Source: Zeimonas sediminis (GTDB taxonomy: Bacteria > Pseudomonadota > Gammaproteobacteria > Burkholderiales > Burkholderiaceae_E). From it: a stretch of DNA of 64,000 nt. The position numbers were made by a program, and so were the translations under genes. The notes beneath the pieces were generated by a model. That model searched no databases, had not been told where the DNA came from, and saw nothing but the letters and a program-made list of their open reading frames with translations. Each line of letters starts with the position of its first letter. The stretch's first letter is position 1. Where the stretch lies: the NCBI RefSeq assembly GCF_023721795.1, contig NZ_JAMQYE010000001.1, positions 744,001-808,000 of the forward strand. Reading direction: 5' to 3'. Below, in pieces: positions 1,306 through 17,063 of this stretch.

Positions 1306-1380
1306 GGGCGGCTAGCTCAGCGGTAGAGCACTGCCTTCACACGGCAGGGGTCACAGGTTCGAACCCTGTGCCGCCCACCA
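1306..1380 (+). tRNA. tRNA-Val (anticodon CAC)
   Basis: A 75-base cloverleaf can be folded by eye. The acceptor stem pairs GGGCGGC with GCCGCCC, followed by discriminator A and an encoded CCA end. The anticodon arm is CTGCC/GGCAG around the loop TTCACAC, giving anticodon CAC, which reads the valine codon GTG. The T arm has the usual GGTTCGAACC core. GTG is very common in this high-GC genome. No integrase or repeated 3' end lies nearby, so nothing suggests use as an attachment site. Confidence 0.97.
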
Positions 1381-8690: not shown

Positions 8691-10661
8691 TCAGATCTGC
8701 CAGACGATCAGCAGCATCGGCAGGCTGACCGCGACGACCAGCAGCTCGAGCGGCAGGCCCAGCCGCCAGTAGTCGCCGAAGCGGAAGCCGCCCGGCCCCA
8801 GGATCAGCGTGTTGTTCTGGTGGCCGATCGGCGTCAGGAAGGCACAGGAGGCGCCGATCGCGACCGCCATCAGGAAGGCGTCGGGATTCACGCCGAGCTG
8901 GCCGGCCGCGCCCAGCGCGATCGGGCACATGACCGCCGCGGTGGCCGCGTTGTTCATCAGGTCGGACAGCGTCATCGTGACGACCAGGATCAGGCCCAGC
9001 GCCAGCACCGCGTGTCCCTGCGCGACGCCTTCGAGCAGGAAGCGCGCGATCAGGTCGGCGGTGCCGGTGGCTTCCATCGCGCCAGCGACCGGGATCAGCG
9101 CGGCGAGCAGCACGATGACCGTCCAGTCCACCGCCTCGTAGACCTGGCGCGGCGGCACGGTCCGCAAGGCCATCGACGCGAGCACGCCGAGCGCGAACGA
9201 CGCAGCGGCCGGCAGCAGGCCGAAGGCGGCCACCGCGATCGACGCGGCCATGATCGCGCTGGCCATGATCGCCTTGCGACGGCTGGGAATGCGCAGCGAG
9301 CGCTCGGCCAGCGGCACGCACCCGGCCCATGCCGCGAACTGCGCAAGCGAGTCGGGCGGCCCCTGCATCAGCAGCACGTCGCCGGGCCGGATCGCCATCG
9401 TTCGCAGCCTCGCGGTCGAGCGCCTGCCCTGGCGCGACAGCGCCAGCAGGTTGATGCCGTAGCGCGTGCGCAGCTCGATGTCGCTGGCCGAGCGGCCGGC
9501 GATCGCCGCGGCTGGCAGCACCGCCAGTTCGACGAGCGCGATCTCGTCGGCACGGCGCTTGTCGCCCGCATCTCCCTCGTCCTGCCCGCGTTGCTCGTTC
9601 CGCTCGCCGTTCTCGCTCCCGCCGGCTTTCTCGCCCTCGCCGGCTTTCTCGCTCTTTCCTGCCTTGTCGCGCTTTCCGGCCTGCTCGCCCTCGTCGCCCT
9701 TCCTGCGCTTCCCGGCCCCTTCGTCCTTCCCGGCCCCTTCGCCTTCCTCGCCTTCCTCTTCTTCCGCGGGCCTCTTCGACTCCTCCAGCTTCAGCCCCAG
9801 GCCCGAGAGCGCCTCGGCCAGCGCCTCCACGTCGGCCTCGATCACCAGGATGTCGCCGGCCCTGACCAGACGATGCGCGCTCGGCGCGGTCACCCTGACC
9901 TCGTTGCGCACGAGGCCCACGACCTGGGCGCCCGCCCGCTCCAGCGCCGTCTCGATCTGGTTCAGCGTCATGCCGTCGGCCTTGCTGTCCTCGGGCACGC
10001 GCGCCTCGGTCAGGTAGGCCGCGGTCTCGAAGCTGTCGGCGCCCGCCCGCTCGCGCGCGGGCACCAGCCGCCATCCGACCAGCGCCACGAAGGCGACCCC
10101 GGCCAGCGCCACCGCGAGGCCGACCGGCGTGAAGTCGAACATCCCGAAGGCGCCGGCGCCCGACTGCTCGCGAAAGCCCGCGACGATCAGGTTCGGCGGC
10201 GTGCCGACCAGCGTGGTCATGCCGCCCAGGATCGAGCCGAAGGCCAGCGGCATCAGCACCTTGCCGGGCGGAAGCGACTGGCGCGACGCGACCTGGATCG
10301 CCACCGGCATCAGCAGCGCCAGCGCCCCCACGTTGTTCATGAAGCCCGACAGCAGGGCCGCGAGCGCGGTCAGCGCGGCGATCGTGACCGTGGGCCCGGC
10401 CGAACCCGGGATCACGGTGCGGGTCAGCGCGTCGACCGCGCCCGAGTTGTAGAGCCCCTGGCTCAGCACCAGCACGCAGGCTACCGTGATCACCGCCGGG
10501 TGCCCGAAGCCGGCGAAGGTCTCGCCGGCCGGCACCAGGCCGGCCAGCACGCAGGCGAGCAGCGCGCCCATCGCGACCATGTCGTGCCTCCAGCGTCCCC
10601 ACAGGAACATCGCGACCGTCACGGTCAGGATCGCGAGGATCAGCATCTGGTCGGTGGTCAA
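8691..10661 (-). CDS. SLC13-family permease with RCK_C domains and a charged insert
   Basis: This 656-residue inner-membrane permease belongs to the SLC13/DASS (ArsB/NhaD-like) family of anion transporters. Its two membrane halves carry the repeated signature (FMNNVGALALLMPV and LMNNAATAAVMCPIAL). Between them lie two TrkA-C (RCK_C) regulatory modules (around residues 215-290 and 374-430). These are separated by an unusual insert at about residues 294-373 made almost entirely of Glu, Lys, Gly, Asp, Ala and Arg. The start is TTG at 10661, supported by a GGAG box six bases upstream; an internal ATG at 10646 is the alternative. Substrates in the family include sulfate and dicarboxylates. It is divergent from the crotonase gene. 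Confidence 0.88.
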   Translation of the reverse strand: MTTDQMLILAILTVTVAMFLWGRWRHDMVAMGALLACVLAGLVPAGETFAGFGHPAVITVACVLVLSQGLYNSGAVDALTRTVIPGSAGPTVTIAALTALAALLSGFMNNVGALALLMPVAIQVASRQSLPPGKVLMPLAFGSILGGMTTLVGTPPNLIVAGFREQSGAGAFGMFDFTPVGLAVALAGVAFVALVGWRLVPARERAGADSFETAAYLTEARVPEDSKADGMTLNQIETALERAGAQVVGLVRNEVRVTAPSAHRLVRAGDILVIEADVEALAEALSGLGLKLEESKRPAEEEEGEEGEGAGKDEGAGKRRKGDEGEQAGKRDKAGKSEKAGEGEKAGGSENGERNEQRGQDEGDAGDKRRADEIALVELAVLPAAAIAGRSASDIELRTRYGINLLALSRQGRRSTARLRTMAIRPGDVLLMQGPPDSLAQFAAWAGCVPLAERSLRIPSRRKAIMASAIMAASIAVAAFGLLPAAASFALGVLASMALRTVPPRQVYEAVDWTVIVLLAALIPVAGAMEATGTADLIARFLLEGVAQGHAVLALGLILVVTMTLSDLMNNAATAAVMCPIALGAAGQLGVNPDAFLMAVAIGASCAFLTPIGHQNNTLILGPGGFRFGDYWRLGLPLELLVVAVSLPMLLIVWQI

Positions 10662-10748: not shown

Positions 10749-11654
10749 ATGACCTACGAAACCCTGCTCTACGACGTCGAGGACGGCATCCTCACGCTGA
10801 CGCTTCACCGTCCCGAGAAGCTCAATGCCTTCACCGACACGATGATGCGCGAGATGGTCGATGCGCTGGACCGCGCCGACGCCGACGACGCGGTGCGCGC
10901 GATCATCGTGACCGGCGCCGGGCGCGCCTTCTGCGCCGGCGCGGACCTCTCCGCCGGGGCGAAGACCTTCGACTACGCGGCGCGGGACGATCGCCCCGAC
11001 AAGCAGGGCACCCCGCTGCTGCCCAGCGGCGAGCCCGACCTCGGCCACGAATCGGTGCGCGACAGCGGCGGCCGGCTCGTGCTGCGGATCTACGAATGCC
11101 TGAAGCCGGTGATCGCGGCGGTCAACGGCGCGGCGGTCGGCATCGGCGTGACGATGCAACTGCCGATGGACATCCGGCTCGCCTCGTCGGACGCGCGCTT
11201 CGGCTTCGTGTTCTCCCGGCGAGGCATCGTGCCCGAGGCCTGCTCGTCCTGGTTCCTGCCGCGCGTGGTGGGCGTCAGCAAGGCGCTGGAGTGGACCTTC
11301 ACCGGCCGGATCCTGTCGGCCCGGGAAGCGCTCGACGGCGGCCTGGTCTCCGCGGTCCACGCCCCCGAGGACCTGCTCCCGGCCGCCCGCGCGCTGGCCC
11401 GCGAGATCGCCGACAACGCCGCGCCGGTCTCGGTGGCGCTCACCCGCCAGATGATCTGGCGGATGGCGGGCGCCGACCATCCGATGGAAGCGCACAAGAT
11501 CGACAGCCGCGCGATCTGGACCCGCGGGCGCGCCGAAGACGCGAAGGAAGGCGTGACCGCCTTCCTGGAGAAGCGCCCGGCGGAATTCCGGAACAGGGTG
11601 TCGACCAACATGCCGTCGTTCTTCCCCTGGTGGGAGCCTCGGCGCTACGAGTGA
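10749..11654 (+). CDS. Enoyl-CoA hydratase/isomerase (crotonase family)
   Basis: This 301-residue crotonase-fold enzyme probably hydrates or isomerises an enoyl-CoA in the cytoplasm. GAGRAFCAGADL forms the first oxyanion-hole loop, AVNGAAVGIGVTMQLPMD the second, and SRRGIVPEACSSWFLPR is the usual catalytic Glu-containing segment. A loop of about 25 residues after ADLSAGAKTF lengthens it slightly compared with 260-residue FadB-like hydratases. It faces the Hfq-like gene tail to tail across a strong hairpin. The specific acyl substrate cannot be told from sequence. Confidence 0.9.
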   Translation: MTYETLLYDVEDGILTLTLHRPEKLNAFTDTMMREMVDALDRADADDAVRAIIVTGAGRAFCAGADLSAGAKTFDYAARDDRPDKQGTPLLPSGEPDLGHESVRDSGGRLVLRIYECLKPVIAAVNGAAVGIGVTMQLPMDIRLASSDARFGFVFSRRGIVPEACSSWFLPRVVGVSKALEWTFTGRILSAREALDGGLVSAVHAPEDLLPAARALAREIADNAAPVSVALTRQMIWRMAGADHPMEAHKIDSRAIWTRGRAEDAKEGVTAFLEKRPAEFRNRVSTNMPSFFPWWEPRRYE

Positions 11655-11673
11655 CGGCGCGGCATCGCGAGCC

Positions 11674-11698
11674 CGGGCCGGCTGCGCGCGCCGGCCCG
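11674..11698. terminator. Hairpin between convergent genes
   Basis: A perfect 9-bp inverted repeat (CGGGCCGGC / GCCGGCCCG) with a 7-base loop lies in the 48 bases between the crotonase stop and the stop of the Hfq-like gene. It could end transcription from both sides, although neither side shows a clear T run. Confidence 0.5.
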
Positions 11699-11702
11699 CG
11701 CG

Positions 11703-12182
11703 TCACTCCTCGTCGGGCTTGACCAGCAGCCGCGAGCGGCGACGCTTGATGACGACCGCCGGCGTGGCCGGCTGGGCTGCGGACCCCGGTTCGGCAGGGC
11801 GGCGCCAGGCCGCCTGCTCGCGCTCGGGCTCGGCGGACCAGTCGCGTTCCTCGGCGGGCTCCGGCGCCCTGGGGCGCAACATGACCTTGCGCGGCCGGTC
11901 TTCCTGGCTGCGCGGCATGCCCCGCTTGGGCCTCGCCAGCGAGCGCTGCACGGTGGCCGTGGCCTGGTGATAGAGGGCGATCACGCCCGTTTCGGTGGCC
12001 AGCAACAGCATGCGGCCGTCGAAGGACTGGATGCGCCCCTGCAAGCGCGTGCCCGAGACGAGATAGATCTCGACGCGGCTGCGCTCGCGGCGCAGGCGGT
12101 TCAGGAACATGAACTGCGCGTTCTCGGTGCGCCCGTCGCTTCGGACCCGGGCGCCCGGATCGCGTTCGGCGGTCTGGGGCAT
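11703..12182 (-). CDS. Divergent Hfq-domain protein with long basic tail
   Basis: This 159-residue protein contains an Sm-like Hfq core at about residues 22-80 inside longer N- and C-terminal extensions. FLNRLRRER matches Hfq helix 1 and the arginine rim, VEIYLVSGTRLQGRIQSFD matches the Sm1 motif, and ALYHQATATV corresponds to the Hfq Sm2 motif YKHAISTV. The rim arginines and the distal-face tyrosine and LQG are kept, but the proximal-face pair Lys-His is replaced by His72-Gln73 and Phe42 by Arg57. The tail of about 75 residues is Pro/Arg/Glu-rich and ends in a KRRRSR cluster. It is probably an RNA-binding paralogue with altered specificity, not the main Hfq; the main hfq is not in the window. 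Confidence 0.75.
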   Translation of the reverse strand: MPQTAERDPGARVRSDGRTENAQFMFLNRLRRERSRVEIYLVSGTRLQGRIQSFDGRMLLLATETGVIALYHQATATVQRSLARPKRGMPRSQEDRPRKVMLRPRAPEPAEERDWSAEPEREQAAWRRPAEPGSAAQPATPAVVIKRRRSRLLVKPDEE

Positions 12183-12305
12183 AGGTTCCCATTCTAAATC
12201 GCAACGGCCGCGGCGGCGACCTCCGCAGGTCCATTGGCGCCGCCCCGAGCGCCTCGTGATAATTTCGCATTCCGTTCAATACAAGACCTAGATACCGAGG
12301 AGAAC

Positions 12306-13292
12306 ATGAAGACACGCCTGCTCGCGGCGACCGCCGCGCTCGTCGCCGCTTCGTCGCTCGTTTCGATTGCGCCGCTCGCCCACGCCGCCGACGCCTGGCC
12401 GAGCAAGACGATCCGGATCATTTCCCCGTTCCCGCCCGGCGGATCGGTCGACCCGCTGGCGCGCCTGTTCGCGCAGCACCTCGCCGAGCCGCTCGGGCAG
12501 AGCGTGGTCGTCGAGAACAAGACCGGCGCGGCCGGCTCGATCGGCACGGCCGAAGCTGCGAAGTCGGCGCCGGACGGCTACACCTGGGTCGTGGTGTTCG
12601 ACACGCACGCGGTCAACCCGAGCGTGATCCCGAACATGTCGTTCGACACCAAGAAGGACCTCGATCCGGTGATGCTGGTCGGCACCTCGCCGATGGCGCT
12701 GGTCGCGCACACCTCGCAGCCGTGGAACAACTTCGCCGAGATGCTCGCCGACGCCAAGAAGAAGCCCGGAGAGGTCGCCTTCGGCTCGGTCGGCACCGGC
12801 AGTCTCGGCCACCTGGCCATGACGCAGGTCGGCAACGCCGCCGGAACCTCCTTCAACCACATCCCCTACCGCGGCGGCGGCCCGCTGATGACCGACGCCA
12901 ACGGCGGCCAGGTGCCGACCGCGATCGGCACCGTGTTCCTGGTGTCGCCGCACGTGAAGGCCGGCAGGCTCAAGCCGCTGGCGGTCACCTCGCTGAAGGA
13001 GTCGCCGGCCCTGCCCGGCACGAAACCGATCGCCGAGCAGGGCGTGCCCGGTTTCGAGGCGCTCGCCTGGTGGGGCGTGCTGGCGCCGGCCGGCACTCCC
13101 AAGCCGATCATCGACCGGATGAACGCCGAACTGGCCAAGATCCTCGCCAAGCCGGACGTGAAGGAGAAGTTGTCGGCGCAAGGCATGGACATCCGCGCCA
13201 GCTCGCCCGCCGAGTTCCGCGACTTCGTGTTCGGCGAGATCGATCGCTGGGCCAAGGTCGTCAAGGACAACAACATCCAGCCAGGCAAGTGA
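12306..13292 (+). CDS. Bug-family (TctC) periplasmic substrate-binding protein
   Basis: This 328-residue receptor has a clear signal peptide ending near LAHAADAWP, so it is periplasmic. The mature protein shows the Bug pattern: IRIISPFPPGGSVDPLAR near the N-terminus, ENKTGAAGSIGT and a later HIPYRGGGP. Bug proteins bind carboxylates or small organic acids for tripartite tricarboxylate transport or for sensing. No TctA/TctB genes are next to it, as is usual for the many orphan Bug genes of Burkholderiales. The start has a GAGGAGA box. The next gene, a hydroxyacid dehydrogenase, begins on the last base of its stop, so its ligand may be a hydroxy acid; this is inference. Confidence 0.92.
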   Translation: MKTRLLAATAALVAASSLVSIAPLAHAADAWPSKTIRIISPFPPGGSVDPLARLFAQHLAEPLGQSVVVENKTGAAGSIGTAEAAKSAPDGYTWVVVFDTHAVNPSVIPNMSFDTKKDLDPVMLVGTSPMALVAHTSQPWNNFAEMLADAKKKPGEVAFGSVGTGSLGHLAMTQVGNAAGTSFNHIPYRGGGPLMTDANGGQVPTAIGTVFLVSPHVKAGRLKPLAVTSLKESPALPGTKPIAEQGVPGFEALAWWGVLAPAGTPKPIIDRMNAELAKILAKPDVKEKLSAQGMDIRASSPAEFRDFVFGEIDRWAKVVKDNNIQPGK

Positions 13293-15344: not shown

Positions 15345-17063
15345 ATGACCGAACTCGATCGCTTCCTGGCTGCCCGCGCCCTGCTGGTCGCCCACCGCGA
15401 AGACTACGCCGCAGCCATCGCGAACTTCGAATGGCCGAAGCTCGAAAGCTTCAACTGGGCGCTCGACTACTTCGACGCGATCGCGCGCGGCAACGACGCG
15501 CCGGCGCTTCACATCGTCGAGGAATCGGGCGCCGAGGCCAGGCTGTCGTACGCGCAGCTGTCGGCGCGTTCGAACCAGGTCGCGAACTTCCTGCTGTCGC
15601 TGGGCGCGCGCAAGGGCGACCGCATCCTGCTGATGCTGGGCAACGAGGTTCCGCTGTGGGAAACGATGCTCGCGGCGATCAAGCTGGGCGCGGTCGTGAT
15701 CCCGGCCACCACGCTTCTGTCGGGCGACGACCTGCTCGACCGCTTGGGCCGCGGCAAGGTGCGGCACGTGATCACCAACGGCGCTGGCGCCGCGAAGTTC
15801 GGGGAGCTGCCTGCCGGCGCGCTCGAAGGCCTGAACCTGGTCGCCGTCGCGCCCGCCGCGACGAGCGGCGAGCCCGCGAAGCTCCCTCCGGGCTGGATCG
15901 ACTATTCCCGGTCGGCCGACGCGGCAGCCGATTTCCGGCCGCCCGAGCCGACGCGCGTCACCGATCCGCTGCTCGAGTACTTCACCTCGGGCACGACCGC
16001 CAAGCCGAAGCTGGTCCAGCACACGCAGCAGAGCTATCCGGTCGGCCATCTCTCGACGATGTACTGGCTGGGCCTGAAGCCCGGCGACGTGCACTGGACG
16101 ATCAGCTCGCCGGGCTGGGCCAAGCACGCGTGGAGCTGCTTCTTCGCGCCGTTCAACGCGCAGGCCTGCGTGTTCATCTACAACTACTCGCGCTTCAACG
16201 GCCCGGCCGTGCTCGGGACGCTGGTCGAGCACCGCGTGAACACGCTGTGCGCCCCGCCCACCGTGTGGCGCTTCCTGATCCAGGAAGACCTGAAGCGCTG
16301 GCCGGTGCGGCTGCGCGAGCTGATCTCGGCCGGCGAGCCCCTTAACCCGGAGGTGATCGAGCAGGTGCGGGCGGCCTGGGGCATCACGATCCGCGACGGC
16401 TATGGCCAGACCGAGACCACCGCGCAGATCGGCAACCCGCCGGGCGCGCCGCTCAAGCCCGGCTCGATGGGCAGGCCGATGCCCGGCTACCCGATCGCGC
16501 TGCTCGATGCCGACGGCAGGCCCGGCGACGAGGGCGAGATCTGCATCGACCTGTCGCGCCGCCCGCTCGCGCTGATGAACGGCTACGCCGACGATCCGGA
16601 GAAGACGGCCGAGGTGATGCGCGACGGCCACTACCACACCGGCGACGTCGGCCAGCGCGACGGCGACGGCTACATCACCTACGTGGGCCGGGCCGACGAC
16701 GTGTTCAAGGCATCGGGCTACCGGATCAGCCCCTTCGAGCTCGAGAGCGTGCTGATCGAGCACCCCGCGGTGGCCGAAGCGGCCGTCGTGCCCTCCCCCG
16801 ATCCGGTGCGCGGCTTCGTGCCCAAGGCCTTCGTGATCGTCGCGCCGGGCCACGAGGCCGGCGAAGCCACGGCGGCGAGCATCTTCCGCTTCCTGCGCGA
16901 GCGGCTCGCCGGCTACAAGCTGATCCGGCGAATCGAGTTCAGCGACCTGCCGAAGACGATCTCGGGAAAGATCAGGCGGGTCGAGTTGCGCGGCCAGGAA
17001 ACCGGCCGGCCGGCGGCCGGCCGGCGCAACGCCAGCGAGTTCCTGGAGGAAGAGTTCCGCTGA
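15345..17063 (+). CDS. AMP-forming acyl-CoA/aryl-CoA ligase
   Basis: This 572-residue ANL-superfamily ligase activates a carboxylic acid to its CoA thioester through an acyl-adenylate. The P-loop-like core is YFTSGTTAKPKLVQHT, the A5-type motif is GYGQTETTAQIG, the A7 aspartate lies in HYHTGDVGQRDGDGY, and the C-terminal catalytic lysine is in PKTISGKIRRVELR. The long N-terminal section with FNWALDYFD resembles medium-chain (ACSM-like) or benzoate/2-aminobenzoate-CoA ligases more than acetyl-CoA synthetase. It ends the Bug-dehydrogenase-DenD operon, 21 bases after denD. Substrate specificity is not readable. Confidence 0.9.
   Translation: MTELDRFLAARALLVAHREDYAAAIANFEWPKLESFNWALDYFDAIARGNDAPALHIVEESGAEARLSYAQLSARSNQVANFLLSLGARKGDRILLMLGNEVPLWETMLAAIKLGAVVIPATTLLSGDDLLDRLGRGKVRHVITNGAGAAKFGELPAGALEGLNLVAVAPAATSGEPAKLPPGWIDYSRSADAAADFRPPEPTRVTDPLLEYFTSGTTAKPKLVQHTQQSYPVGHLSTMYWLGLKPGDVHWTISSPGWAKHAWSCFFAPFNAQACVFIYNYSRFNGPAVLGTLVEHRVNTLCAPPTVWRFLIQEDLKRWPVRLRELISAGEPLNPEVIEQVRAAWGITIRDGYGQTETTAQIGNPPGAPLKPGSMGRPMPGYPIALLDADGRPGDEGEICIDLSRRPLALMNGYADDPEKTAEVMRDGHYHTGDVGQRDGDGYITYVGRADDVFKASGYRISPFELESVLIEHPAVAEAAVVPSPDPVRGFVPKAFVIVAPGHEAGEATAASIFRFLRERLAGYKLIRRIEFSDLPKTISGKIRRVELRGQETGRPAAGRRNASEFLEEEFR

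Follow-up and report, generated by a model that had tools for sequence, protein, structure and literature searches.

A divergent hfq gene on the minus strand

On the minus strand of the window, i.e. the whole 64,000-nucleotide stretch of Zeimonas sediminis DNA under analysis, an open reading frame spans exactly positions 11703-12182, and its product carries an Hfq/Sm core between a short N-terminal extension and a long C-terminal part (Table 1). The sequence-only reading of these positions had given no strand, and read forward they give other letters. Its estimate of about 20 N-terminal and 75 C-terminal flanking residues came close, as about 21 aa and 77-79 aa were found.

Table 1. Features of the divergent Hfq gene, in window coordinates, with residue numbers of the window protein
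Feature	Position	Strand	Evidence or remark
Gene for divergent Hfq paralogue	11703..12182	-	159 aa + stop; ORF, Pfam Hfq match, dN and dS
N-terminal extension, residues 1-21	12120..12182	-	first residues MPQTA, also in L022 and L023
Hfq/Sm core, residues 22-80	11943..12119	-	helix 22-32 and five strands
Core, rim: N28, R31, R32, R34 kept	11943..12119	-	residue alignment
Core, proximal: Q41/F42/K56/H57 changed to G56/R57/H72/Q73; Q8 kept	11943..12119	-	residue alignment
Core, distal: Q52 changed to I68, I30 to T45	11943..12119	-	residue alignment
Variable Arg/Pro/Glu-rich linker, residues 81-140	11763..11942	-	pLDDT mostly <60; dN 0.261, dS 0.959 vs Zeimonas arvi L022
Conserved C-terminal tail, residues 141-159 (PAVVIKRRRSRLLVKPDEE), and stop	11703..11762	-	similar ends across the family; weaker resemblance in Burkholderia-type Hfq2

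The Sm and Hfq motifs recognised at first sight were borne out by profile search, the Pfam Hfq domain (PF17209) being matched over residues 23-79 at 7.9e-12 and 45.1 bits against a cut-off of 27, with an Sm-fold match found, and phmmer returned 34 PDB sequences at E <= 0.01, every one named Hfq. With an alignment of eight rows (the window protein, L022, L023 and five ordinary Hfqs), AlphaFold2 gave a block at residues 21-80 with a pLDDT of 90-95, in which one helix and five strands are formed, with values under 60 for most of the tail; all 50 Foldseek matches listed were Hfq entries or Hfq complexes in the PDB, the best at E 2.6e-6 and, among these, with a TM by target of up to 0.91. The model built from the single sequence was poor (mean pLDDT 43). 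Since five of the eight rows are ordinary Hfqs, the alignment steers the prediction towards this fold, which is therefore supported by the sequence match no less than by the prediction. Regarding equivalogs, the window protein fell short of both NCBIfam cut-offs for Hfq, namely NF001602 (49.5 bits for a cut-off of 95) and TIGR02383 (44.3 for 61.7). The canonical hfq, which the earlier reading had suggested looking for elsewhere in the genome, is present on contig C2 (G000:C2:27554-27739) and scores 101.7 bits in a profile search of the genome, vs. 46.9 for the window protein; as it sits on another contig of the same genome, the window gene is a paralogue. Judged from its sequence, the window protein is an Hfq/Sm-core protein and a second Hfq beside the canonical one, not the canonical Hfq itself.

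Comparison with Zeimonas arvi (L022) gave a dN of 0.018 and a dS of 0.683 for the core (dN/dS 0.026), and a dN of 0.120 and a dS of 0.581 for the whole protein (dN/dS 0.21), which indicates that the gene is real and under purifying selection. A chance open reading frame is ruled out by the Pfam match, by these ratios and by homologues in 29 of the 74 genomes of the family. A promoter and terminator scan of positions 11600-12400 found no terminator-like site and a single promoter-like site, which lies on the plus strand. Elsewhere in the window, a tRNA gene (1306-1377, plus strand) is the only Rfam match at gathering scores, and a CitMHS/TrkA-C transporter (8691-10661, minus strand) bears a low-complexity stretch of about 70 residues rich in Glu, Gly and Lys shortly ahead of its TrkA-C part (residues 376-445).

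Rim, proximal and distal residues

Residues were compared, in E. coli numbering, over 90 unique cores, namely 24 from the window family (29 loci), 14 of Hfq2 type (30 loci), 51 others (71 loci) and that of E. coli; the 51 others, mostly canonical, also comprise an alphaproteobacterial Hfq and three second copies of an odd kind, and the second paralogue copy of G028 was left out of the residue counts. That the rim is kept, as had been proposed, holds for all four residues in the alignment, since Asn13, Arg16, Arg17 and Arg19 are present in the window protein. Across the family, the first three are found in 24/24 unique cores and Arg19 in 23/24, while the 51 other cores have His19 in 46 cases and Lys17 in 37; the rim reads RRER in the window protein and RKEH in the canonical Hfq of the same host.

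The proximal pocket is formed by Gln8, Phe42, Lys56 and His57 (PMC5379935). Arg57, His72 and Gln73 of the window protein do align with Phe42, Lys56 and His57 of E. coli, so that the reported loss of the proximal RNA-binding residues is right for these three positions, but it does not extend to Gln8, which had gone unlisted and is kept, here and in all 24 unique cores of the family. The window protein thus retains Gln8 only of the canonical U-pocket (Gln8, Phe/Tyr42, Lys56, His57). Within the family, Gln41 is lost from 22 of the 24 unique cores and kept in two, position 42 is Phe or Tyr in two and otherwise His (9), Asn (7), Arg (5) or Ser (1), and Lys56 is absent throughout, with His (15), Gly (4), Ala (3), Thr (1) or Ser (1) instead. 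His57 persists in 22/24 and is Gln in both of the unique cores that represent the window subclade, which comprises three genomes, i.e. those of the window, of Zeimonas arvi (L004/L022) and of Lautropia sp. SCN 70-15 (L005/L023); the joint loss of the three named residues (42, 56 and 57) is a trait of this subclade. The title of a cited paper links His57 to hexamer organisation, and the His57 to Gln change may bear on the ring stability of the window protein; of note, PDB entries exist for the H57A (12 chains) and H57T (6 chains) variants of Pseudomonas aeruginosa Hfq.

Regarding the distal face, the expectation that it was kept did not survive alignment. The side chain of Gln52 joins the A and R sites (PMC6422490, also for the roles of the other distal residues), and in the window protein Gln52 is replaced by Ile68 and Ile30 by Thr45, with Tyr25, Gly29, Leu32, Gln33 and Thr61 retained; in terms of the canonical A/R pocket, Tyr25 and Gln33 are found without Ile30 and Gln52. 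Both replacements are family-wide, as neither Gln52 nor Ile30 occurs in any of the 24 unique cores (position 30 being Thr in 21, and Val, His and Gln in one each). Besides, Tyr25 is found in 21 cores and Phe in the other three, Gly29 in 24/24, Gln33 in four including the window protein, and position 61 is Thr in 14 and Ser in 10. With the distal face not intact, binding restricted to A-rich RNA, as once suggested, is not predicted by the sequence. The window protein shares with canonical Hfq, be it that of E. coli or its own copy on contig C2, the Sm core, the rim, Gln8, Tyr25, Phe39, Asp40 and Tyr55, but differs from it in having both base-reading pockets changed.

Because Gln8, Tyr25, Gln33 and Thr61 remain, RNA binding by the two faces could be changed rather than absent, each face recognising single-stranded RNA by another motif and the paralogue thereby serving separate client RNAs. 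The invariance of Gln8, Tyr/Phe25, Gly29 and Thr/Ser61 (each 24/24) is in line with such an explanation, and so are the replacements at position 42, where His, Asn and Arg group by kinship when judged by eye and may be selected. Against it stand the loss of both Gln52 and Lys56 from all 24 unique cores and the assortment of His, Gly, Ala, Thr and Ser at position 56, which fits a relaxed reading of bases, and on balance we consider an altered specificity unlikely.

Kinship with Burkholderia-type Hfq2, distribution and genome context

Two Hfqs per genome, one of them long-tailed, are known in Burkholderia (PMC7074383, PMC3474761); the second, Hfq2, is expressed in stationary phase and controlled by the sRNA h2cR (PMC3474761), and the reason for having two Hfqs in the Burkholderia cepacia complex is called still unclear in PMC7074383, which also names relatives of Hfq2 from Gammaproteobacteria. 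Hfq2-like proteins were found in 27 of the 80 genomes of the family of G350, a large-genome relative (E <= 1e-28). This group can be tied to Hfq2 since one locus (L135) carries all 24 bases, and another (L132) 23 of the 24, of the Northern probe for Burkholderia cenocepacia hfq2 published in PMC3474761. The model NF010691/PRK14091 was rejected as a means of recognising Hfq2, as 198 of 200 genomes of the order match it, none above its cut-off, and the alignments of Hfq2-like proteins cover one half of the model.

The C-terminal end is a first point of resemblance. In the window family the linker is variable and the terminal end is conserved, reading PAVVIKRRRSRLLVKPDEE in the window protein and PTVTIVRRRSRLLPRE, AGVVVVRHKRVRTIVKPEDE or PEVKVVRRTRRTIQRDPE in other paralogues; a simple pattern captures this end in 27/29 paralogues, and the two missed (L032 and L036) look alike by eye. 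Among the Hfq2-type proteins, the terminal end reads GPVIVTRRRRIV, GPVVVTRRRRLF, RPVAISHKRRLP, NPVVSTRKRRLT or similar, with 26 of 30 matching the search pattern, three more reading STVITRRRRP by eye and L157 having none; the Hfq2 end GPVVVTRRRRL, for instance, resembles the paralogue end APVVVTRRRSRI in L007. A 12-column matrix was built from 13 Hfq2 tail peptides and scored on 14 distinct paralogue tails, each with 1000 shuffles. Its best site begins 15-28 residues before the C-terminus in 14/14 tails, and in 10 of these at most 14 shuffles in 1000 reach an equal score (2/1000 for the window tail); the match is weaker in the other four, namely L032 (54 of 1000), L050 (72), L052 (106) and L051 (256). 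Conservation of the tail merely through overlap with a neighbouring gene is ruled out, since the immediate neighbours differ between genera.

The second point is the tree of the 90 cores, which unites the paralogues and Hfq2 (38 rows) in one clade at 100/100 and the paralogues alone at 100/99. It was rooted on the alphaproteobacterial Hfq. As it was built from 65 columns and has long stems (1.25 and 1.54) and a long-branch warning, long-branch attraction is possible and the grouping with Hfq2 rests on the tree and the tail together. Hfq2 does not form one clade inside the joint clade, and L157 adjoins the paralogues at 86/80, so that the window family may be either sister to Hfq2 or nested within it. 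L157 itself (in G521) is an Hfq2-like protein devoid of the terminal V/T and Arg motif that branches beside the window family. Some other families of the order hold another kind of second Hfq (L090, L095, L096 and L100), and the unique cores of L090, L095 and L100 fall just outside the joint clade, intermediate between it and canonical Hfq. In the genus g180, two different Hfq2-type proteins per genome occur in the 3/3 genomes sampled (L152, L153 and L155; L158, L159 and L160).

With Hfq2 of Burkholderia cenocepacia and its relatives, the window family shares the status of a second Hfq beside the canonical one and a long basic C-terminal extension. It is not filed as Hfq2 itself because Lys56 and Gln52 are each present in 14/14 unique cores of Hfq2 type and in 0/24 here; in addition, Tyr or Phe is found at position 42 in 13/14 Hfq2-type cores whereas it is mostly lost from the window family, and position 57 is Arg in 10/14 of the former but His in 22/24 of the latter. 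Core phylogeny, tail and residue patterns thus place the window protein in a divergent lineage beside or within Hfq2, with far more divergent pockets. Several Hfqs per genome are also encountered in Bacillus anthracis (Hfq1, Hfq2 and Hfq3), which belongs to another phylum and is likened here by description only; its Hfq1 is monomeric and non-functional in E. coli (PMC7843513).

The paralogue, as detected with a profile (A1, E <= 1e-19), occurs in 29/74 genomes of the GTDB family and in 6 of its 16 genera, that is in 9/9 genomes of g11, 12/12 of g16, 5/18 of the window's own genus and the one genome (1/1) of each of g7, g8 and g10, a copy in G017 that is truncated where its contig ends being left out of the count. 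One genome, G028, has two copies of it (L174 and L182). Over the order, 361/399 genomes match A1 at E <= 1e-15, with only six matches above 130 bits, all of the window family; among the matches listed, the next is the Hfq2 of G321 at 86 bits and the others lie at about 65-75 bits, and the loci inspected, out of 60 loci retrieved, were mostly ordinary Hfq with a few of Hfq2 type and odd second copies. At E <= 1e-21 over the class, A1 matches 1/369 genomes, which is the window's own, and the Hfq2-type profile (A2, E <= 1e-27) matches 3/399 genomes of the order, in one other family. A canonical hfq also exists in 24 of the 29 paralogue holders; it was not found in the assemblies G002, G007, G030, G037 and G067, whose stated completeness is 68-97%.

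No neighbour is common to all of the 17 stretches compared (the window, 15 paralogue loci and one Hfq2 locus), using a crude gene caller, which failed to call even the paralogue at L123 and L128, and loose similarity clusters; some neighbours are common to 3-6 of the 17. Genes for a TctC-type protein and an enoyl-CoA hydratase lie near the locus in 3/17 (window, L116 and L119). An AMP-binding enzyme (window 15345-17063, plus strand) lies within about 8 kb in 5/17 (window, L116, L119, L122 and L126), possibly by chance since such enzymes are common. A phage origin was set aside, as a scan of viral contigs with A1 yielded 11 stretches matching a pattern and none that was a relative.

The basic tail and a putative role in RNA annealing

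The long basic tail noticed at the outset is present and general, the C-terminal net charge being positive in 29/29 paralogues. The part following the core measures 58-116 residues in these 29, with a net charge (R+K-D-E) of +5 to +15 in every one, vs. 10-14 residues and -3 to -2 in 18/18 ordinary Hfqs; in the window protein, the last 77 residues include 19 Arg/Lys and 13 Asp/Glu, while its own canonical Hfq has a short acidic tail. In the window subclade and some other paralogues the tail finishes in acidic residues (PDEE, PEDE), an argument against a tail that is basic throughout; the window protein itself ends in PDEE and may thus retain a short tip capable of competition for the rim. The acidic tip of E. 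coli Hfq is a competitor of RNA for the rim and prevents indiscriminate DNA aggregation, and a basic patch, when exposed, binds DNA as well as RNA without discrimination (PMC5606850, PMC6561178); that such a patch needs a protective tail is hinted at in PMC5606850. In Caulobacter as in E. coli, rim and C-terminal tail form a regulatory pair in which an acidic tip competes with nucleic acid for the basic rim (PMC6561178, PMC5606850), but the net tail charge of the window family is positive.

Since it combines an RRER rim, changed base-reading pockets and a net basic tail, the likeliest explanation is that this paralogue of the Hfq2 lineage acts as an RNA annealer or strand-exchange chaperone of low base specificity working by rim and tail, to which we give a probability of about one half. 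The protein would form a ring; because the proximal and distal pockets are both changed, it would not choose its RNAs by U-tails or ARN repeats, and the RRER rim together with the basic tail would carry out RNA annealing or strand exchange, perhaps on structured or double-stranded RNA. As had been put forward earlier, it is a possible candidate for a specialised riboregulator. More broadly and more tentatively, the family might represent Hfq rings devoid of the usual base-specific selection on both faces, in which rim and conserved basic peptide would serve broad RNA annealing or partner docking beside canonical Hfq, the acidic-tail rule being inverted.

The same basic rim and tail could instead bind DNA, the protein being a DNA-binding or nucleoid protein for which RNA control would be secondary. 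The basic tail itself, the role of the E. coli acidic tip in preventing indiscriminate DNA aggregation (PMC5606850) and the first Foldseek match, E. coli Hfq with double-stranded DNA, lean that way, but this match is one among many near-equal Hfq entries and uninformative on DNA, and the rim residues kept are those of RNA annealing, which makes a primarily DNA-directed function improbable. Least probable of these readings is a modulator of canonical Hfq that would alter RNA access through mixed rings or capping with little RNA activity of its own, as the coexistence with canonical hfq and a possible weakening of homo-rings by the His57 change are set against a rim and tail more basic than in canonical Hfq, which suggests direct contact with nucleic acids.

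The window family amounts to a natural experiment, with both pockets changed, the rim kept and the tail charge inverted, in which one can test whether rim and tail suffice for a useful RNA chaperone. The conserved C-terminal peptide of Hfq2-type proteins also deserves study, as PMC7074383 stresses the variable, glycine-rich and repeat-bearing extension; regarding this shared tail motif and the window family, no description was found in the open-licence literature searched. At the nucleotide level, the last 21 codons (window 11706-11768) have a dN of 0.082 and a dS of 0.154 against Zeimonas arvi (L022), the latter being low compared with the core and the linker though based on only 18 synonymous sites, and a constraint at the RNA level at the 3' end of the gene is possible.
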